From NCBI GenBank assembly GCA_028717785.1, contig JAQUND010000029.1, forward strand, positions 1-17,250: 17,250 bases of DNA, in the 5' to 3' direction. The stretch is from Candidatus Nanoarchaeia archaeon (lineage in GTDB: Archaea > Nanoarchaeota > Nanoarchaeia > SCGC-AAA011-G17 > JAFCDX01). Positions 5,454 through 17,250 of this stretch are shown here, piece after piece (positions within the stretch are counted from its first letter, which is position 1; each line of letters begins with the position of its first letter). The position numbers and the translations under genes were made by a program. The notes beneath the pieces were generated by a model. It searched no databases. It was not told the origin of the DNA and saw only the letters and a list, made by a program, of their open reading frames with translations.

Positions 5454-6138
5454 TGAAGGGAAAAAAATTTATTCCGATATGAATCATATAATTGATTCTC
5501 TAGATAAAGTTACAAAAGATTTTGAAATTATTTTAGTTAATGATGGTTCTAAAGATAATACTTTAAAAGAAGTGTCTAGAATTAAAGATAAAAGAATAAA
5601 AGTAAAAAGTTATGAAAAAAATATGGGTAAAGGTTATGCTTTAAAATATGGAGTTAATTTTGCAAAGGGAAAATACATTTCTTTTATGGATGCAGACCTA
5701 GATATTAATCCTAATTCACTAAAGAATTTTTTTAAATATATGGAATTTCATAATGCGGATATTATAATTGGGAGCAAAAGACATCCACAATCACAAGTTC
5801 ATTATCCAATTTTAAGAAAGATTTTAAGTAGAGCTTATCAAACAATGATTTATTTATTATTTAGATTAAATGTTAGTGATACCCAATCTGGTTTAAAATT
5901 ACTAAAAACAGAGTGTGCAAAAAAGTTAATGGATAAAGTTACTGTTAAAAAATATGCTTTTGATCTTGAATTATTAGTTAATGCTAAAAGAAATGGGTAT
6001 AAGGTTGTTGAAGCTCCAATTGTATTAGACTATAAGTTCAATTCAACTGTTAATTTTAAGGCTATTTGGGGTATTTTTGTTGATACTTTAGGGGTTGCTT
6101 ATAGGACCCATATACTTAGATATTATGATAAAAAGTGA
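5419..6138 (+). CDS. GT2 dolichol-phosphate sugar synthase-like (DPM1/ALG5-like)
   Basis: A 239-residue GT2 enzyme with the features of dolichyl-phosphate mannose or glucose synthases: IIPAYNE at 7-13, NDGSKDNT at 41-48, metal-binding DADLD at 91-95, GSKRHPQS (118-125), and SDTQSGLK at 153-160, a hallmark of this subgroup. No C-terminal transmembrane anchor is evident, as in the short DPM1 forms. It would charge a polyprenyl phosphate with a single hexose, the donor that GT-C enzymes such as the GT39 protein at 10311-11915 need. The start is fixed by MVKLSAIIPAYNE, so the 35-base overlap with the flippase is probably real. It closes the first operon and is followed by a T-run. Confidence 0.88.
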   Translation: MVKLSAIIPAYNEGKKIYSDMNHIIDSLDKVTKDFEIILVNDGSKDNTLKEVSRIKDKRIKVKSYEKNMGKGYALKYGVNFAKGKYISFMDADLDINPNSLKNFFKYMEFHNADIIIGSKRHPQSQVHYPILRKILSRAYQTMIYLLFRLNVSDTQSGLKLLKTECAKKLMDKVTVKKYAFDLELLVNAKRNGYKVVEAPIVLDYKFNSTVNFKAIWGIFVDTLGVAYRTHILRYYDKK

Positions 6139-6150
6139 ATTCACAACTTT

Positions 6151-6160
6151 TTTAAATTTT
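6151..6160 (+). promoter_or_regulatory. TATA-like box before radical SAM gene
   Basis: TTTAAATTTT lies in the 41-base gap after the Dol-P-sugar synthase gene. The centre of TTTAAA is 26.5 bases before the ATG at 6180, the distance expected between an archaeal TATA box and a transcription start, so the mRNA would be leaderless or nearly so. The preceding Ts (6148-6153) could also help terminate the upstream operon. AT-rich sequence makes single hits weak, but four other starts in the window show the same spacing. Confidence 0.5.
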
Positions 6161-6179
6161 GTTAATGATTTTAAAGAAT

Positions 6180-7688
6180 ATGAAAATTTTACTAATTAAA
6201 CCACAAATAACTATATCTAAAAATTTTAAGGGTATAGGTAGGTTTTTTCCTCCGATAGGACTGGAATATATTGCTGCTTTATTAGAACAAAATAATTACA
6301 CTGTTAAAATTCTTGATACAAGTATAGAAGATTGGAAAAAAATCCATAAAAGAACTGATGGAATGGAATATATGGGTATGAGTTTTGATAAAGTTAAGAA
6401 AGAAATTAAAAAAGAAAATCCTGATGTTGTTGGTATAACAACTTTAACAGTAGATTCAGTTAATGCATTTTCAATAGTTAAAGCAATAAAAGAAGTAAAT
6501 CCTTTAATTAAAGTTATTTTTGGAGGACCTCATGTTTGTGCAATGCCTGAAGAGGTAATTAATAATTCAAATGTAGATGTAATTTGTATTGGTGAGGGTG
6601 AATATACATTTTTAGAATTAATGCAAGAATTTGAAAAGAAAAATCTTAATTTAACTAAAGTAAAAGGAATTTGGTATAAAGAAAATGGAAAAATAATAAA
6701 AAATGAATTAAGACCTTTAATTCAAGATCTAGATAAATTACCTTTTCCAGCTAGACATTTAATTAATTATGAAAAATATGCTGAAGCAGGAAAATATCTT
6801 CAAGGTTCTAGAAGAGTTGAAACAAGAAGAGATACTATAATATCTTCAAGGGGTTGTCCATTCAATTGTATTTTCTGTACTATTAGTATTTCTATGGGTA
6901 AACAATTTAGAGCAAGAAGTCCTGAAAATGTAATAAAAGAAATAGAAGAAATTATAGAGAAATATAATGTTGGTGATATTGGATTTGAAGATGATAATTT
7001 TACATTTAACAAAGAGAGAACAAATAAAATATTAGATTTAATTATTAAGAAAGGACTTAATAAAAAAATAAGTTGGTCTACTCCTAATGGAGTTAGAGCT
7101 GATACTTTAGATGAAAACCTATTAAAGAAAATGAAAGAAGCTGGTTGTGAAGAAATTATTTTTGCTCCTGAAAGTGGAAACCAATTTGTTGTTAATAATA
7201 TTATTAAGAAAAAATTAGATTTAAGAATTGTTGAAAGAAATGCTAAAATTTGTAAAGAAATTGGACTAAGATGTGGAATGTTTTTTGTTATAGGTTCTCC
7301 TGGAGAGACAAAAGAACAAATTAATGATACTGTAAATTTTGCAAATAAAATGAAAAAAGAATATAATGTATTTCCTATGTTATTTACAGCTCAACCTTAT
7401 TATAATACTGATTTGTATAAAATAAGTAAAGAAAAAGGTTATTTAACAAAGACTAATAAAGCTAGTTTTGAACAAGGATTAATCAATGAAGAAGCAATGA
7501 TTAAAACTTCTGAATTTACACCTGAATATTTGGCTAAAATAAGAAGTGAATTTTCAGCATCAATAGATAAAATGGGAATATTTGAATTAATTAAATCAAG
7601 ACCTTTTGATTCTTTAAGAGCATTTTTATTACATCCTAAATATATCATAAAACATCTTTCAAAACTTTTATATTCTAAATTTACATAG
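6180..7688 (+). CDS. B12-binding domain radical SAM protein
   Basis: A 502-residue cobalamin-binding radical SAM enzyme. The N-terminal Rossmann-like B12 domain covers about residues 1-150, with FGGPHVCAMPEE at 114-125 and GEGEYTF at 138-144; no DxHxxG histidine is seen, as is usual in this class. A linker with LPFPARHL (187-194) leads to the radical SAM core, whose cluster cysteines are 226, 230 and 233 (RGCPFNCIFC). The relatives that have been studied methylate or rearrange unactivated carbons, so a role in building an unusual sugar or lipid is plausible here, but the substrate is unknown. I chose the ATG at 6180 (MKILLIKPQ), which fits the family and the TATA-like box; TTG 6159 and ATG 6165 would add seven or five residues. 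A paralogue lies at 11966-13456. Confidence 0.92.
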   Translation: MKILLIKPQITISKNFKGIGRFFPPIGLEYIAALLEQNNYTVKILDTSIEDWKKIHKRTDGMEYMGMSFDKVKKEIKKENPDVVGITTLTVDSVNAFSIVKAIKEVNPLIKVIFGGPHVCAMPEEVINNSNVDVICIGEGEYTFLELMQEFEKKNLNLTKVKGIWYKENGKIIKNELRPLIQDLDKLPFPARHLINYEKYAEAGKYLQGSRRVETRRDTIISSRGCPFNCIFCTISISMGKQFRARSPENVIKEIEEIIEKYNVGDIGFEDDNFTFNKERTNKILDLIIKKGLNKKISWSTPNGVRADTLDENLLKKMKEAGCEEIIFAPESGNQFVVNNIIKKKLDLRIVERNAKICKEIGLRCGMFFVIGSPGETKEQINDTVNFANKMKKEYNVFPMLFTAQPYYNTDLYKISKEKGYLTKTNKASFEQGLINEEAMIKTSEFTPEYLAKIRSEFSASIDKMGIFELIKSRPFDSLRAFLLHPKYIIKHLSKLLYSKFT

Positions 7689-7695
7689 GTTTATT

Positions 7696-8649
7696 ATGAA
7701 GTTTTCAATAGTAATACCAGCAAGAAAAATTGATGATTTTCTAAAGGATTCTATGCATTATTTTCTAGATCAAAGTTATACTAATTTTGAAATCATTATA
7801 GTTTCAGATATTAAAGAAAAATATAAATTTCCAAAAACAAGAATAATAACAACAGGAAAAATAGTTCTTTCTGAAAAAAGAAATATTGGAGCTAAAGCTG
7901 CTAAAGGTGATGTAATTGTATTAACTGATGATGATGCTTATCCTGATAAAGATTGGTTAAAAAATGCAGTAAAATATTTTAAAAATAAAGATATTGGTGG
8001 AGTTTGTGGTCCAGGTATTACTCCTGAAAGTGATTCTTTTTCACAAAAATTATCTGGAATGATACTTGAATTTGCTTCAGGTAAAAATCAGTATAGATAT
8101 AGACCAACTAAAGTACAAGAATGTGATGATTTTCCAACTTATAATTTATTTGTAAGAAAAAGTGTTTTTGATCAAATTCAAAAATCAGATAAAAATTACT
8201 GGGCTGGAGAAGATACTAAATTATGTTATGATATTACTAAAGTTTTAAATAAAAAATTAGTTTATGATCCTAAAATACTTGTTTATCATCATAAGAAAAA
8301 ATTATGGAAACCTCATTTTAAACAAATTTTTGATTATGGATCTCATAGAGGGTATTTTGTTAGGGAATTTCCAAAAACTTCATTTAGATTAACTTATTTT
8401 ATTCCTTCATTATTTGTTTTAGGTTTAGTAATTGGTGGGTTATTATCATTTAAGTTTTTAATTATAAAGAAAATATATTTATTAGTGTTAGGAATATATT
8501 TTTTAAGTTTAATTTATAATGCAATAAGAACTAAGAGTTTAATTTATGGATTAGCAATAATTCCTGTAACATTTTTAACTCAAGTTGTATATGGACTTGG
8601 TTTTATTCGTGGATTAATTTTAAAGGAGAAGATAGATAAAAATAGATGA
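7696..8649 (+). CDS. GT2 family glycosyltransferase with C-terminal membrane anchor
   Basis: A 317-residue GT2 (GT-A fold) enzyme. It opens with FSIVIPARK, and the strand that usually ends in DGS is replaced by VSDIK. It carries KRNIGAKAAKGD (61-72), the metal-binding DDDA at 78-81, and the catalytic-side GEDTKLC at 171-177 followed by VYHHKK. Two or three hydrophobic helices from about residue 232 to the end anchor it to the membrane, so it should act on a lipid-linked acceptor at the cytoplasmic face. It starts 7 bases after the radical SAM stop and overlaps the next gene by ATGA. A TATA-like stretch about 26 bases upstream (around 7670) could give extra internal initiation, but that is weak. 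Donor and linkage cannot be read. Confidence 0.9.
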   Translation: MKFSIVIPARKIDDFLKDSMHYFLDQSYTNFEIIIVSDIKEKYKFPKTRIITTGKIVLSEKRNIGAKAAKGDVIVLTDDDAYPDKDWLKNAVKYFKNKDIGGVCGPGITPESDSFSQKLSGMILEFASGKNQYRYRPTKVQECDDFPTYNLFVRKSVFDQIQKSDKNYWAGEDTKLCYDITKVLNKKLVYDPKILVYHHKKKLWKPHFKQIFDYGSHRGYFVREFPKTSFRLTYFIPSLFVLGLVIGGLLSFKFLIIKKIYLLVLGIYFLSLIYNAIRTKSLIYGLAIIPVTFLTQVVYGLGFIRGLILKEKIDKNR

Positions 8650-11965: not shown

Positions 11966-13456
11966 ATGGAAAAACCAAGAGTATTACTGATAAATCCTCC
12001 TTTAGAAGGGCATATTAATGCAGGTTTAGATAATCTAAAGGTTCCTCTAGGATTAGCTTATTTAGCTGCTTATTTAGAAAAAAAAGGTTATAATGATGTT
12101 AAAATACTAGATGCTTTAGCTGAGGAAAAAATAACTAAAGTAAAACAGAATATATGGCATTCTGGGATGTCTTTTGAGTCTATTGAACAGTATATTAAAG
12201 AGTATAAACCACAAATTGTTGGTATAACTTGTTCCTTTAGTATTTATTATAAAATTGCTTTAGAAGTTGCTAAGATAGTTAAAAAAATTGATAAAAAAAT
12301 TATTGTTGTTTTTGGGGGAGCTCATGTTTCTGCTGCTCCTGAATCTGTTTTAAAATCTGGGTATGTTGATTTAGTTGTTAAAGGTGAAGGAGAATTAACG
12401 TTTTTTGAAATTGTTGATAGATATTATAATCATAAAGATTTAACTAATATTGATGGAACTGTTTTAATTAAAAATAGACAATTGAAAAAAAATAAAGATC
12501 GAGAATTATTAAAAAATTTAGATGAAATTCCTTTTCCAGCTAGACATTTACTTAATATGAAACAGTATTTTAATCATCCTTTAAATTCAATTGGAACAAT
12601 GAGAAAACCAGCAACAGATATTGTTTCTTCAAGAGGATGTACTTGTAAGTGTGTATTTTGTTCGGTTTATACTATTTGGGGAAGAACTTGGCGTGGAAGA
12701 AGTGCTAAAAATGTTGTAGATGAGATTGAATTTTTAATTAAAAATTATGGAATAAAACAAATAAGATTCCAAGATGATAATGTTTCTTGGGATAAAAAAA
12801 GAATGATTGAAATTTGTGATGAAATTCTTTCAAGAAAATTAAATATTAAATGGGATACTCCTAATGGAATTGCTATTTGGACTTTAGATGAAGAATTATT
12901 AAGAAAAATGAAAAAGTCTGGTTATTATAGATTAGCTCCTAGTATTGAATCTGGTTCAATGGATACTATTAGATTTATTCAAAAACCAATTAGTTTTGAA
13001 TTTGTTAAGAAAATACTTAAGTTAGCTGATAAAGTTGGTCTTTGGACTGTGTCTCCTTTTATAATTGGATTTCCTTATGAAACTAAGGAAGATATACTTA
13101 AAACGATTAAATTTGCTTCTAAATCTGGATTAGATTTTGCTATATTTTATATTGCCCAACCTTATGCTGGAACTCCTCTTTATGATATTTATGAAAAAGA
13201 GGGATTATTGAATAATGGAATACAAGAATCTAGTTCTGTACAAGCAACTAAATATAATAGTAAGAATTTTAGTGCTTCTGAATTGATTAATTTTAGGTTA
13301 TTAGCTTATAAAGAATTTTATAAATCTAGATTTATTTATTATTTAAATCCTGTTCACATTTATTACTTTTTTAAAAAATGTGGTAATATTGAAGGATTTT
13401 TGCATATAGTTAAGATGTTTAGATCTATTGTTAGGTTAAATTATACTAAGAAGTAG
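11966..13456 (+). CDS. B12-binding domain radical SAM protein (paralogue)
   Basis: A 496-residue cobalamin-dependent radical SAM protein and paralogue of the one at 6180-7688. Shared landmarks are GMSFES, VFGGAHVSAAPE (115-126), GEGELTF, and IPFPARHLL (188-196). The 4Fe-4S cysteines are 225, 229 and 232 in RGCTCKCVFC, with an extra Cys227 inside the loop. The B12 domain is N-terminal (about 1-150), the radical SAM barrel occupies the middle, and a helical tail follows. It is transcribed alone from the divergent promoter shared with the GT39-type gene and is followed by a hairpin. The probable job is a carbon methylation or other radical step on a sugar or lipid of this locus; the reaction is not identifiable from sequence. 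Confidence 0.92.
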   Translation: MEKPRVLLINPPLEGHINAGLDNLKVPLGLAYLAAYLEKKGYNDVKILDALAEEKITKVKQNIWHSGMSFESIEQYIKEYKPQIVGITCSFSIYYKIALEVAKIVKKIDKKIIVVFGGAHVSAAPESVLKSGYVDLVVKGEGELTFFEIVDRYYNHKDLTNIDGTVLIKNRQLKKNKDRELLKNLDEIPFPARHLLNMKQYFNHPLNSIGTMRKPATDIVSSRGCTCKCVFCSVYTIWGRTWRGRSAKNVVDEIEFLIKNYGIKQIRFQDDNVSWDKKRMIEICDEILSRKLNIKWDTPNGIAIWTLDEELLRKMKKSGYYRLAPSIESGSMDTIRFIQKPISFEFVKKILKLADKVGLWTVSPFIIGFPYETKEDILKTIKFASKSGLDFAIFYIAQPYAGTPLYDIYEKEGLLNNGIQESSSVQATKYNSKNFSASELINFRLLAYKEFYKSRFIYYLNPVHIYYFFKKCGNIEGFLHIVKMFRSIVRLNYTKK

Positions 13457-13461
13457 TTTGT

Positions 13462-13468
13462 GCGCTAC
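13462..13468 (+). repeat. left copy of GCGCTAC direct repeat
   Basis: GCGCTAC occurs 6 bases after the radical SAM stop and again at 16403-16409, bracketing the methyltransferase-ATPase block. I find no other GCGC in the window. Seven bases is short, so this is a candidate boundary only. Confidence 0.35.
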
Positions 13469-13473
13469 AGCTC

Positions 13474-13492
13474 GAACTTTTAGAAAAAGTTC
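13474..13492 (+). repeat. perfect 8-bp hairpin after radical SAM gene
   Basis: GAACTTTT (13474-13481), a 3-base AGA loop, and AAAAGTTC (13485-13492) form a perfect inverted repeat 17 bases past the stop of the upstream gene. No T-run follows on the + strand, so it is not a classic intrinsic terminator. It could still mark an mRNA 3' end or be a protein site at the edge of the defence-like block. Confidence 0.5.
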
Positions 13493-13507
13493 ACAAAATA
13501 GGTAAAA

Positions 13508-13515
13508 CTTAAATA
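13508..13515 (+). promoter_or_regulatory. TATA-like box before 35-residue ORF
   Basis: CTTAAATA is centred about 25 bases before the ATG at 13537, the spacing seen at the other presumed leaderless starts in this window. It supports transcription of the small ORF and perhaps of the genes downstream. Confidence 0.45.
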
Positions 13516-13536
13516 TCTAAAAGGGATTAGATTAAT

Positions 13537-13644
13537 ATGGATAAATGGGCAATGGTTTCAATAAGTATATTGATATTATTTATTACATTATTTATTATTA
13601 AATTTATATTATCACAAAATAGAATTAGAAAAAAGAAAAAGTAA
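13537..13644 (+). CDS. 35-residue single-pass membrane miniprotein
   Basis: A short ORF, ATG to TAA, encoding MDKWAMVS, then one hydrophobic helix (about residues 5-25), then a basic tail ending RIRKKKK. The hydrophobic-then-basic pattern predicts one transmembrane helix with the C-terminus in the cytoplasm. It resembles no family I can name. Support for it being real: a TATA-like box at the expected distance, a clear ATG, and a neat fit in an otherwise empty gap. It lies within the GCGCTAC-bracketed block, 43 bases before the DNA methyltransferase gene, which has its own TATA-like box. It may belong to the module or to the glycan locus. In AT-rich DNA, short hydrophobic ORFs arise by chance, so confidence is moderate. 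Confidence 0.55.
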   Translation: MDKWAMVSISILILFITLFIIKFILSQNRIRKKKK

Positions 13645-13657
13645 ATGTTAAAAGAGG

Positions 13658-13667
13658 TTTAATAAAA
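13658..13667 (+). promoter_or_regulatory. TATA-like box before DNA methyltransferase gene
   Basis: TTTAATAAAA, with its core centred about 26 bases before the ATG at 13688, predicts a leaderless transcript for the methyltransferase-ATPase gene pair. No Shine-Dalgarno motif is seen near the start. Confidence 0.45.
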
Positions 13668-13687
13668 TTCAAATTTAATGATATAAA

Positions 13688-14692
13688 ATGGATAAATTAA
13701 ATGTATTAGATTTATTTTGTGGTGCGGGTGGAATGAGTTTTGGATTTAAAAAAGCAGGGTTTAATATTGTTTTAGGTGTTGAATCAAATAAAAATGCAAT
13801 TAATACGTTTAAAATAAATCATAAAAATTCTGAAATATTGTGTAAGGATATAAGAGAAGTTTCATCTTTAGAAATTAAAAAAATAATGGGTCATTCAAAA
13901 ATAGATGTTATTGTTGGAGGTCCGCCTTGTCAAGGATTTAGTATGGCTGGAAAAAGAATACCTTCTGATCCAAGAAATTCTTTATTTAAAGAATATTTAA
14001 GGTTAGTTAAAGAATTAAAACCAAAAATATTTGTAATGGAAAATGTAAGGGGTTTGTTATCTATGAAAGATTCAAAAGGTATAAAGGTTATAGAAATAAT
14101 ACTAAAAGAATTTAGAAAAATAGGATTTAAAACAAATTATTATAAAGTTAATGCTGCAGATTATGGAGTTCCACAAAAAAGACATAGAATTTTTATAATA
14201 GGTACACAAAAAGAATACAATTTTAATTTTCCTAGAAATACACATACAGAAAATGAAGGTCTTTATAATAAAATAAAACTTAAAAAATGGGTAGGTATAA
14301 AAAATATATTAATTAATAGAAAAGAGTTGAATCAAAAATATTTTTATTCTCAAAAACTAATTAAAGGATTTAAAAGAAGGCAATATTTAAATAAATTAAA
14401 AAATATTGGCTTTGGTTGGCAATTTTTGAATCCAAATAAACCCTCTTATACTATTTCTGCAAGGTATTGGAAAGACGGTGCAGAAGCACTTATAAAGTAT
14501 AAAAATAACAAAATAAGGATGTTAACCCCTCAAGAATGTGCTTTAATACAAACATTTCCTAAAAATTATAAATTTTTTGGAAGTGAAAGAGAGATATACA
14601 CTCAAATAGGAAATGCAGTTCCCCCACTATTGTCAAGTATAATCGCTAAAAAAATAAAAGAGATACTTATTATTCAAAATGGAAAAAATTAA
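13688..14692 (+). CDS. dcm: DNA (cytosine-5-)-methyltransferase
   Basis: A complete 334-residue C5-cytosine methyltransferase. Motif I is DLFCGAGG (8-15), and motif IV, GGPPCQGFS, has the catalytic Cys81. Motif VI is ENVRGL (118-123), motif VIII is QKRHR (163-167), motif IX starts near RMLTPQECALIQTFP, and motif X has QIGNAVPP. All catalytic motifs are intact. The target-recognition region between motifs VIII and IX is about 110 residues long and does not reveal the target. It methylates cytosine in a short DNA site, presumably to mark self DNA. Its end overlaps the GHKL ATPase gene by 14 bases, so the two are coupled. No restriction endonuclease follows, so it is either an orphan or the self-marking part of a non-classical system. 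The symbol is given in the generic sense. Confidence 0.95.
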   Translation: MDKLNVLDLFCGAGGMSFGFKKAGFNIVLGVESNKNAINTFKINHKNSEILCKDIREVSSLEIKKIMGHSKIDVIVGGPPCQGFSMAGKRIPSDPRNSLFKEYLRLVKELKPKIFVMENVRGLLSMKDSKGIKVIEIILKEFRKIGFKTNYYKVNAADYGVPQKRHRIFIIGTQKEYNFNFPRNTHTENEGLYNKIKLKKWVGIKNILINRKELNQKYFYSQKLIKGFKRRQYLNKLKNIGFGWQFLNPNKPSYTISARYWKDGAEALIKYKNNKIRMLTPQECALIQTFPKNYKFFGSEREIYTQIGNAVPPLLSSIIAKKIKEILIIQNGKN

Positions 14693-16403
14693 TTTTAGAT
14701 TTCAAGTAAGTGGAAACATAATAAAAAAGTTTGGTAGAGAATCAATTTCAAATAAAAATATAGCTATTTTAGAATTAATAAAAAATTCTTTTGATGCTGG
14801 ATCAACAAAAGTAACTGTTGATTTTGAAAATATAGACACATCTGATATAAAATTAAAAATTTCTGATAATGGGCAAGGTATGAATTATAACGATATCCAA
14901 AATAAATGGATGTTAATTGCTACTCCAAATAAATCAAAAAAATTTAAAGAAGAAGATAGAGTTTTAGTTGGAGAAAAAGGAATTGGACGGCTTTCTTCAG
15001 AATGTTTAGGGGAAAAAACAAATTTAATTACTTTTCCAAAAAAAGAATTATTTGGATATAAGATTTTGTTTGATTGGAAAAAATATGATAATGAAGATAT
15101 TCTTGTTAATGATGTAATAAATGAAGGAGAAAAAATACTTAATAAGAAAAAAGAACATGGAACAATTATAGAGATAAATAAATTAAGACATAATTGGAAT
15201 GACAATTTTGAAATTAAAAAATTGCTTAAAGATATATATCTCATTCATCCTCCAAATAAATCATTTAAAAATTTTAATATAATTACTCCATTTTCGCGTA
15301 AATTAAATGATCTTATTAAACCAAGAAAAAGTATATTTGATAATGCAGCATACAAATTAAAAGTTAGATTAACAGGCGGGAATAAGGTTTTTTATGAATT
15401 TACTAATTTTAATAAAAAGAAAAAAAGTAATTGGATGACTATTGATAAAAAATTGACTTGTGGGGATTTAGTATTTGAATTATTTTTTTATTATAAACGT
15501 GAAAGAGATTATGAATCAAGATTTGGTAAACATCTTCCTAGTTTAGAAATGAATAAAGTAGATACTTTTTTAAAAGAATATTCAGGTATTAAATTATATC
15601 GTGATAATTTTAGGGTAAAACCTTTTGGAGAAGATGGTAATGATTGGATTGGTATAGATCCTTTATCCTTAAATAATCCAAGTATTATACCTAGAAATTT
15701 TCAAGTTTTTGGTATGGTTCATATTAGTAGATTAAAAAATCCTTTAATAAAAGATGTAACCACAAGAGAAGGTATAGATTTTAATGATGCAGCAAGAGAT
15801 ATGGTTAATTTTATTCAATGGGTTATAACTCAACTTTGGGTTGAATTAAGAAGTGAAGCAGAACCAGATAAAAAGAAAGCAAGAAAGACCATTAAAATTA
15901 TTAAATCAGAAAAAAGTAGAAAGTCAAATTTTCAAATTCCGTCAACTATTCCTGTAGAAGTTAAAGAAAAATCTTTAATTGAAGTAAGAGGTAAGTATCC
16001 ACAAATATTTTATGATGATCTTGAAGAAGAAATAAATATATGTTGTGAGCATAATCATTCAAATGCTGCATTTTTTTTGACAAGAAAATTTATAGAAAAT
16101 TTAATATTAGATATCCTTATCAAAAAGTTTCCTAATAATCAATCTCTTTGGTGGAGTACTCAATATGGATATCATTTAAATTTGAGCCCCCTTATACATA
16201 ATTTATATGTTAATAGAAAAGATTTCAAACCTTATGCTAAAGATTATATAGAAAAATTTAATGAAATTGCAGATAAATTTAGAAATGAAACAAATAATAG
16301 TGCACATAATTTACATGATTATTTATCTGATAAATCCGAATTAAATACATATAAAATAAAAGATATGATACAATTATTAATTAATATATACAATTCTATA
16401 TAG
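14679..16403 (+). CDS. GHKL (MORC/MutL-like) ATPase with HEPN/DUF4145-like C-terminal domain
   Basis: A 574-residue protein. The N-terminal GHKL ATPase module has an N-box ELIKNSFDA (Glu32, Asn36), DNGQGM (63-68), and the ATP-lid glycines GEKGIGRL (98-105). It resembles the bacterial MORC-like (paraMORC) ATPases that are known to sit beside DNA methylases. An S5-like transducer region should follow (to about residue 385), then a Lys-rich linker (about 395-412). The last 130 residues look helical and hold R-N-x6-H (Arg535, Asn536, His543) before a final helix, a pattern like HEPN/DUF4145 domains. R to H is separated by 7 residues, one more than the usual HEPN spacing, so that call is tentative. 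It overlaps the methyltransferase gene by 14 bases and ends 2 bases before the convergent glycosyltransferase stop. The likely role is ATP-dependent sensing or loading on DNA in defence. Confidence 0.87.
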   Translation: MEKINFRFQVSGNIIKKFGRESISNKNIAILELIKNSFDAGSTKVTVDFENIDTSDIKLKISDNGQGMNYNDIQNKWMLIATPNKSKKFKEEDRVLVGEKGIGRLSSECLGEKTNLITFPKKELFGYKILFDWKKYDNEDILVNDVINEGEKILNKKKEHGTIIEINKLRHNWNDNFEIKKLLKDIYLIHPPNKSFKNFNIITPFSRKLNDLIKPRKSIFDNAAYKLKVRLTGGNKVFYEFTNFNKKKKSNWMTIDKKLTCGDLVFELFFYYKRERDYESRFGKHLPSLEMNKVDTFLKEYSGIKLYRDNFRVKPFGEDGNDWIGIDPLSLNNPSIIPRNFQVFGMVHISRLKNPLIKDVTTREGIDFNDAARDMVNFIQWVITQLWVELRSEAEPDKKKARKTIKIIKSEKSRKSNFQIPSTIPVEVKEKSLIEVRGKYPQIFYDDLEEEINICCEHNHSNAAFFLTRKFIENLILDILIKKFPNNQSLWWSTQYGYHLNLSPLIHNLYVNRKDFKPYAKDYIEKFNEIADKFRNETNNSAHNLHDYLSDKSELNTYKIKDMIQLLINIYNSI

Positions 16404-16409
16404 CGCTAC
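16403..16409 (+). repeat. right copy of GCGCTAC direct repeat
   Basis: The second GCGCTAC spans the junction of the convergent gene ends: its first G is the last base of the ATPase TAG, and its CTA is the glycosyltransferase TAG read on the - strand. Loss of the interval between the two copies would leave that glycosyltransferase stop intact. Candidate module boundary only. Confidence 0.35.
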
Positions 16410-17250
16410 TTAGTTGATTCAATTCTAACCCAAATATCTTCAAACTTTTTCTTAACAATATAACTATCTTTAAAGATTAACAACCATAAATATAATCTTA
16501 ATATAATCAATTTAAAATTATAATAAACTTCTTTAACACTTTTACAATAACTAAATATACTAAATACTCCAGAAACTTCCTGACTAAAGTATCTCATAGA
16601 TTTTTCTGAAAAATACTTCTTCAACTGTTCATAACCACCAGTAGATCTTCTTTTTTGTTTAATCCAATCTTTTACATTAGTAGGATATTTAACATAAACA
16701 AGAGCATTTTCTGCATAATTTGTCTTATAACCCTTATTAGCAATATATCTGGACATATAAGCATCTTCAGAAAGCATTTCAGGAGGTATTTCTTTAACAA
16801 TTCCTTTCCTAATTGCAAATAAATAACCACTACATACAATAAATTTTCCTTTCTTACTTAAGTCTCTTCTTAATTTATCTGCCATAAAAGTTAGTAAATG
16901 AGAAGTATAACCTAAGAAATTAGTTCTAGGATTTAAAGAAACTGGATGGCCAGAAACAACACCTGTATCTTTATCAAATTTATCAACTAGTTCATTTACA
17001 GAGTTTATTGAAGTATAAACTTCCCCATCTGTTAATATTAGAATATCACCTTTAGCTTTTTTAAAAGCCAAATTTAAAGCACTTGGTTTTCCTTTAGCTT
17101 GATCTTGAATTAGTTTTACTTTATATTTTTTAGCTGCATTAAGAGTTTCTTTATCTGGAGCTACAACAATAATTTCATACTTTTCTTTAATTTTTTGGTC
17201 TAAAAAGCTAGAAATGGCTTTTCCAATTGTATTTGGTTCTTTAAATGAGG
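16406..17250 (-). CDS. GT2 family glycosyltransferase, 5'-truncated by window edge
   Basis: The frame is open through the right edge, so the TTG at 17069-17071 is an internal Leu codon and the true start lies outside, probably only a short distance away because the fragment begins with the SFKEPNTIGKAISSFLDQ region typical of GT2 N-termini. About 281 residues are visible. In order: KGKPSALNLAFKKAKGD, a D-G-E triad (17021-17029) where most relatives have DXD, SEDAYMS with the catalytic-side ED, and QKRRSTGG, like the Q-x-x-R-W region of processive or membrane-bound GT2 enzymes. Hydrophobic stretches in the last 70 residues suggest membrane contact. It converges on the ATPase gene with a 2-base gap. 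It is part of the glycan locus on the far side of the defence-like block. Confidence 0.88.
   Translation of the reverse strand, partial: SFKEPNTIGKAISSFLDQKIKEKYEIIVVAPDKETLNAAKKYKVKLIQDQAKGKPSALNLAFKKAKGDILILTDGEVYTSINSVNELVDKFDKDTGVVSGHPVSLNPRTNFLGYTSHLLTFMADKLRRDLSKKGKFIVCSGYLFAIRKGIVKEIPPEMLSEDAYMSRYIANKGYKTNYAENALVYVKYPTNVKDWIKQKRRSTGGYEQLKKYFSEKSMRYFSQEVSGVFSIFSYCKSVKEVYYNFKLIILRLYLWLLIFKDSYIVKKKFEDIWVRIESTK

Follow-up and report, generated by a model that had tools for sequence, protein, structure and literature searches.

A C5 cytosine methyltransferase paired with a MORC-like ATPase that carries an unnamed HEPN-fold tail: a candidate defence module in an archaeal glycan locus

MORC and paraMORC ATPases have been described together with cytosine methylases and Vsr in restriction-modification (R-M) operons (Iyer, 2008; PMC2292703), and Ymh-type HEPN domains have been described as fusions to paraMORC C-termini in R-M neighbourhoods, for which a role like that of PrrC and RloC was proposed (Anantharaman, 2013; PMC3710099). 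Among tested systems the nearest is VcSduA, in which a GHKL ATPase of the paraMORC3 type is joined to a nuclease; its phage defence is experimentally proven, mutants of the ATPase and of the nuclease each lose it, and the ATPase glutamate is required (PMC12137116, 2025). The present analysis concerns a stretch of 17,250 nucleotides from a Candidatus Nanoarchaeia archaeon (contig JAQUND010000029.1; hereafter the window), in which a C5 cytosine DNA methyltransferase (MTase) is encoded together with a GHKL-S5 ATPase ending in a HEPN-fold domain. We consider it fairly probable that this pair is a mobile R-M-like defence module in which self DNA would be labelled by the MTase, with a HEPN effector under the control of the ATPase.

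The MTase (13688..14692, forward strand; 334 aa) is intact, with every core motif present and a match to PF00145 in Pfam at E 4.4e-79 (266.7 bits against a cut-off of 22). Its top match in the Protein Data Bank is M.HaeIII, with the best stretch at residues 4-181, and the best 12 of 62 plasmid matches are 36-38% identical to it, a recognition site being stated in none of these 12. The ATPase follows on the same strand (14679..16403; 574 aa), and the two frames share 14 bp (14679..14692), an overlap that likely couples their translation. The two overlapping genes of the initial annotation, a C5 MTase and a GHKL ATPase, are thereby confirmed. Within the ATPase a GHKL ATP-binding domain (14679..15278, forward; about residues 1-200, edge approximate), with E32, N36, D63, G65, G67, G98, K100 and G101, is followed by an S5-type transducer and helices (15279..15878, forward; about residues 201-400, edge approximate), with GIKLYRDNFRV at 303 and TTREG at 361, and by a variable linker of low model confidence (15879..15986, forward; about residues 401-436). 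The glutamate and asparagine of the N-box, the DxGxG motif and the GxKG lid are invariant across 40 aligned rows, which together with the S5 transducer places the protein among the GHKL-S5 ATPases of the MutL/MORC/paraMORC type. The best structural matches of its model are MORC3 and MORC4, MORC3 being the closest (model residues 11-395), so that its earlier description as MORC-like is borne out at the level of the predicted fold.

Comparison with the described systems reveals both likenesses and differences. As in the MORC/paraMORC1-5 R-M systems, a GHKL-S5 ATPase is found together with cytosine methylases and Vsr in the loci studied here (PMC2292703). However, the GhXhhpXXRhl motif of the strict MORC family (Iyer, 2008; PMC2292703) is missing from the S5 domain, where the ninth residue of the window's GIKLYRDNFRV segment is F, M or L in 40/40 rows (by eye) and R stands one position later; nor was a helicase or restriction endonuclease (RE)-fold gene found in the window (Pfam, for the 14 proteins scanned). 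Those of the five paraMORC families for which the available text of PMC2292703 describes a C-terminal domain end in RE-fold, TIR or HxH-type domains, and HEPN is not among these. VcSduA resembles the window protein in that a GHKL ATPase controls a fused C-terminal effector, but its effector is a DUF4263 nuclease of the PD-(D/E)xK type and no MTase partner is mentioned in the available part of the paper (PMC12137116); membership of Shedu in the VcSduA sense was rejected, as Pfam gave no DUF4263 nuclease match in the window ATPase. In the HEF_HK/Response_reg_2 systems a C5 MTase likewise stands beside a paraMORC-related GHKL protein (PMC8011034). Two of our loci, L014 and L017, resemble these and differ from the window in that no HEPN tail is present; their ATPase instead has a further HATPase domain and, as shown for L014, a neighbour with a receiver domain.

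The C-terminal domain of the window ATPase (15987..16400, forward; about residues 437-574; R469, K470, E473, N539, H543 and Y548) has a predicted structure most like HEPN folds and belongs with the four-helix HEPN domains, so that the HEPN fusion first raised as a possibility is supported by structure prediction. A search of a viral fold library with the HEPN model returned nothing at E 1e-3 or better. R469, K470, E473, H543 and Y548 are invariant in 40/40 rows and N539 is kept in 37/40; R469, K470, E473 and H543 remain invariant in 51/51 rows, 11 of which are proteins without an ATPase domain. The R of the textbook R-X4-6-H endoRNase motif is missing from this domain; R is found at H-5 or H-6 in 0/40 rows, at H-7 in 6/40 and at H-8 in 27/40, the window among the last. 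The site is unusual, and its RNase activity is putative. Like the paraMORC-HEPN-Ymh proteins, the window protein combines a GHKL-S5 ATPase with a C-terminal HEPN domain and adjacent DNA methylases (PMC3710099), but its tail is not of the Ymh type (PF09509 is unmatched in the window protein) and the canonical motif spacing is missing. The tail represents a HEPN class without a name in Pfam.

This class also occurs on its own. A search with the HEPN region alone gave 11 proteins among 75 candidates, all with a GHKL domain and already in the ATPase listing, and a DNA scan added 13 further loci in which the class stands without an ATPase domain. In the archaeal loci L056 (2035-7686) and L060 (2505-6459) such a protein is found inside type I R-M-like operons; in L056 it stands between type I R and S-type genes (the S assignment was made by eye), and in L060 it adjoins an Eco57I-type methylase. 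In L057, L064, L065, L066, L067 and L068, which are thaumarchaeal and bacterial records, the class is joined to a different short N-terminal helical part of about 80-100 aa, with no evident R-M genes around.

A protein search with the ATPase, in which 7,996 candidates were scored, gave 469 proteins including the window's own; among 120 of these that were listed (the window's included), 112 have a tail of this HEPN class, 4 a Ymh tail and 1 a DUF4145 tail, and 3 are short or truncated. Scanning genome contigs with the single ATPase protein as query gave no match. An alignment-based scan of genome contigs gave 70 loci and a viral scan 53, and a GHKL relative is encoded in 109 of these 123. Nine loci selected through the ATPase, L001-L008 and L071, carry a relative of similar length (complete, 545-596 aa), and these ATPases are 26-78% identical to one another. 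Among them a DNA MTase stays linked to a partner protein, as expected of an R-M system: a C5 MTase directly adjoins the ATPase gene in six of nine, lying upstream in L001, L002, L003, L005 and L007 and divergently in L008, while an N6_N4 MTase lies directly upstream in L006, so that a DNA MTase of either class is adjacent in seven of nine. In the six C5 loci the two frames show a similar overlap or a gap of less than 35 bp. A rough and purely illustrative estimate, assuming a chance of 0.02 per genome, puts fortuitous adjacency in six of eight genomes at 1.7e-9. The pairing in the initial annotation is supported by these similar-length relatives. L004 has no MTase on its contig, and the sole C5 MTase match of its genome sits at a contig end; in L071 a C5 MTase lies 1.5 kb off on the opposite strand, with an EcoRII-C-type and an HhH-GPD protein intervening. 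The row of C5 MTase, HhH-GPD glycosylase and EcoRII-C-type protein in L071 (3457-5844, reverse strand) is perhaps an R-M set in which the glycosylase replaces Vsr. In L002 (1513-5437, forward strand) the MTase-ATPase pair is directly followed by an R-M pair of the HinP1I type and by a gene for Vsr.

No recognised endonuclease was found among the window proteins by Pfam, NCBIfam and Vsr searches. Of the nine relatives, however, seven carry Vsr as a gene or a fusion; in L001 and L003 it is joined to the MTase, and in L005 it is broken. It was not found in the L006 locus, the L071 locus or the window. Of the eight genomes from which L001-L008 come, seven have Vsr matches, in every case at least once within the ATPase locus; the exception is G006, the genome of L006, which alone lacks a C5 MTase match as well. 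Across the 109 GHKL loci Vsr is present in 20, and a C5 MTase accompanies it in 19 of them, L004 being the exception. Because Vsr tracks the C5 MTase and is absent where the MTase is of the N6_N4 class, and also from the window, we regard it as a companion of the methylase, in keeping with repair of deaminated 5-methylcytosine (5mC) as its probable role, and the idea of Vsr as the effector nuclease was dropped as the main reading. The related concern, a nuclease partner simply lost from the window, is only partly borne out: Vsr is indeed present in most relatives, yet its distribution points to repair and not to the effector. What the loci have in common is the ATPase-HEPN protein, not Vsr.

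Methylase, ATPase and tail act like interchangeable components of a single device. Among the window, L003 and L007 the MTases show 62-66% identity, which takes in the recognition region, yet between the window and L007, where the MTases are 66% identical, the ATPases are only 31% identical and the tails are of different types. Conversely, the window and L001/L002 share ATPases at 49% identity and MTases at 35%. In L141 the window's MTase subfamily (50% over 206 aligned positions) lies directly downstream of a 747-aa GHKL protein. To judge from these comparisons, MTase and ATPase have no single shared history, and the N6_N4 MTase upstream of the L006 ATPase indicates that the ATPase-HEPN protein can persist through a switch of methylase class. 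The C-terminal slot itself varies among HEPN types, namely the unnamed class, Ymh and DUF4145. By profile the tails of L001-L004, L006 and L071 are of the window's class, those of L005 and L007 are DUF4145 (L007 also scoring weakly on the class profile, E 4e-4), and that of L008 is neither, with R-X4-H seen by eye. Ymh tails (PF09509) occur in P0089 and P0091 (scan) and in P0096 and P0098 (precomputed label), and all four keep R-X4-H as GIRDKKAH or GVRDKKAH. Related GHKL domains are also found on plasmids (51 records by tblastn) and phages (one record); these matches, judged for plasmids from the best 20, cover at most residues 2-393 and so do not include the HEPN tail. Campylobacter accounts for 41 of the 51 plasmid records, mostly annotated as sensor histidine kinase (e.g. 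Campylobacter jejuni, H3-H20).

The module as a whole is exchangeable too. The STT3 protein of the window shares 53% identity with its counterpart in genome G442, from the phylum of the Woesearchaeota record, in which 94 of 279 genomes were matched by STT3 at 1e-30. The G442 locus, L138, is syntenic with the window, 9 of 15 window proteins matching at 50-79% in the same arrangement, whereas the window MTase and ATPase have no match in L138 at E 1e-5. DNA similarity ends at window position 13419 and restarts at 16419, and in place of the unmatched stretch (13420..16418) L138 has 2,036 bp with four small genes (5848-7839), unrelated to the module and without a Pfam match at E 0.1, which are possibly other cargo of a variable site. 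The same flanks around unrelated genes mark a variable spot, with the module as cargo that can be exchanged; the G+C content of the module (24.0%, against 24.3% in the preceding sequence) gives no sign of recent arrival. Relatives are rare: matches at E 1e-40 were obtained in 3/379, 5/371, 3/156 and 3/295 genomes of four phylum samples, counts that take in the centre genomes as well as GHKL matches that are partial or larger, and those of similar length and coverage number 2, 1, 2 and 1, respectively. Directly 5' of the MTase, a 35-aa open frame (13537-13644, forward) encodes a hydrophobic stretch and then a basic tail; it may be a small membrane peptide or a chance frame. The surrounding archaeal glycan locus contains two B12-binding radical SAM proteins (6159-7688 and 11966-13456), the second of which is conserved in L138.

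According to the reading we prefer, the C5 MTase would methylate a fixed site in the host genome and the ATPase would act as a DNA clamp of the MutL/MORC type; on DNA without the mark, the ATPase would switch on its C-terminal HEPN domain, which would most likely be directed at RNA rather than at the invading DNA, as an abortive or dormancy response. The pairing, the exchange of MTases and tails, the ATPase-less copies beside R-M genes, the variable spot, the rarity within phyla, the HEPN fold and the VcSduA precedent speak for this reading. That the native genome is methylated, that unmodified DNA is sensed, that the HEPN domain acts as an RNase and that the pair serves defence are inferences. 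The chief weakness of the proposal is the atypical HEPN site. Against a general coupling, a C5 MTase occurs in the fetched flank of only 21 of the 100 other GHKL loci, mostly encoding larger proteins, and within 200 bp in 13. Occurrence of the ATPase homologues mostly away from methylases, which the initial annotation took as grounds for abandoning its view, is not seen among the nine relatives of similar length, but the other GHKL loci mostly show no C5 MTase nearby.

The atypical site leaves room for two alternatives in which the HEPN domain is not the effector. It is improbable, in our view, that the ATPase protein restricts DNA by itself, in an ATP-dependent manner and through a nuclease site that escaped recognition, in the way of BbrUII/HgiDII, the HEPN domain serving merely for dimerisation or nucleic-acid binding. 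BbrUII/HgiDII restriction enzymes are partners of methylases. Their family is the top NCBIfam match of the ATPase (NF050001, E 1.4e-16), indicating a related GHKL domain, and the N-terminal part of the protein also matches PADLOC REase_II (PDLC03419, E 7e-8). However, the NF050001 match is confined to residues 6-175 and reaches 60.2 bits where 550 are required, too few for membership, and Pfam finds no nuclease domain in the ATPase protein. Quite improbable, too, is silencing of the MORC type, in which the ATPase would clamp or condense unmarked DNA and the HEPN domain would be a non-catalytic dimerisation or binding part. MORC3 and MORC4 as best structural matches fit this idea, as does the missing canonical motif, but H543 and R469 are invariant in every aligned row, and the tail is swapped with Ymh domains that keep R-X4-H in all four cases, as if an active effector occupies the slot.

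A methylation-linked repair module, in which a MutL-like ATPase would join Vsr-like repair of deaminated 5mC outside any defence, is very unlikely. MutL reportedly influences Vsr, and Vsr is frequent in the relatives, twice as an MTase fusion; yet it is missing from the window and from beside the N6_N4 MTase of L006, it accompanies the MTase and not the ATPase, and a HEPN tail in an exchangeable spot suits conflict systems better. Hardly likely at all is that an orphan methylase stands by chance beside an unrelated ATPase: although L004 lacks an MTase on its contig, the L071 MTase belongs to a separate gene set and the larger GHKL relatives mostly have no C5 MTase nearby, adjacency in diverged loci (six of nine for C5, seven of nine for either class), with frames overlapping or nearly touching, argues otherwise.

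The combination of a methylase with an ATPase-HEPN protein has largely been published as a prediction (PMC2292703, PMC3710099), and an open-licence literature search found PMC3710099 as the only paper with both 'paraMORC' and 'HEPN'. DefensePredictor mentions HEPN systems and a HATPase/REC label in its available text, and a match to the window pair is not established (PMC13092281). In the open-licence literature we found no description of this HEPN class, which is no proof of its absence there, nor of its spread with and without an ATPase, of the exchange of HEPN types and methylase classes over one ATPase, or of the variable archaeal spot. The change of MTase subfamily over a conserved ATPase that has no evident recognition domain of its own fits a further proposal, which we hold to be rather unlikely: an R-M-like system without DNA restriction, in which the methylase, as the sole sequence-specific part, would be the target sensor for a generic MORC-like clamp, and missing marks would switch on an exchangeable HEPN effector. 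The sensor would be a C5 MTase in the window and an N4/N6 MTase in L006, and the window's effector would be its HEPN domain, whose class has no name and whose active site is atypical.

In eukaryotes, MORC proteins act in DNA silencing, and the proposal that they arose from conflict systems of prokaryotes is based mostly on gene context (Iyer, 2008; PMC2292703). The pair described here is a two-gene archaeal unit small enough for a direct test of whether MORC-like ATPases read DNA methylation and of what they activate, and it draws attention to a HEPN class, unnamed in Pfam, that is found repeatedly in archaea and bacteria, both joined to an ATPase domain and apart from one.
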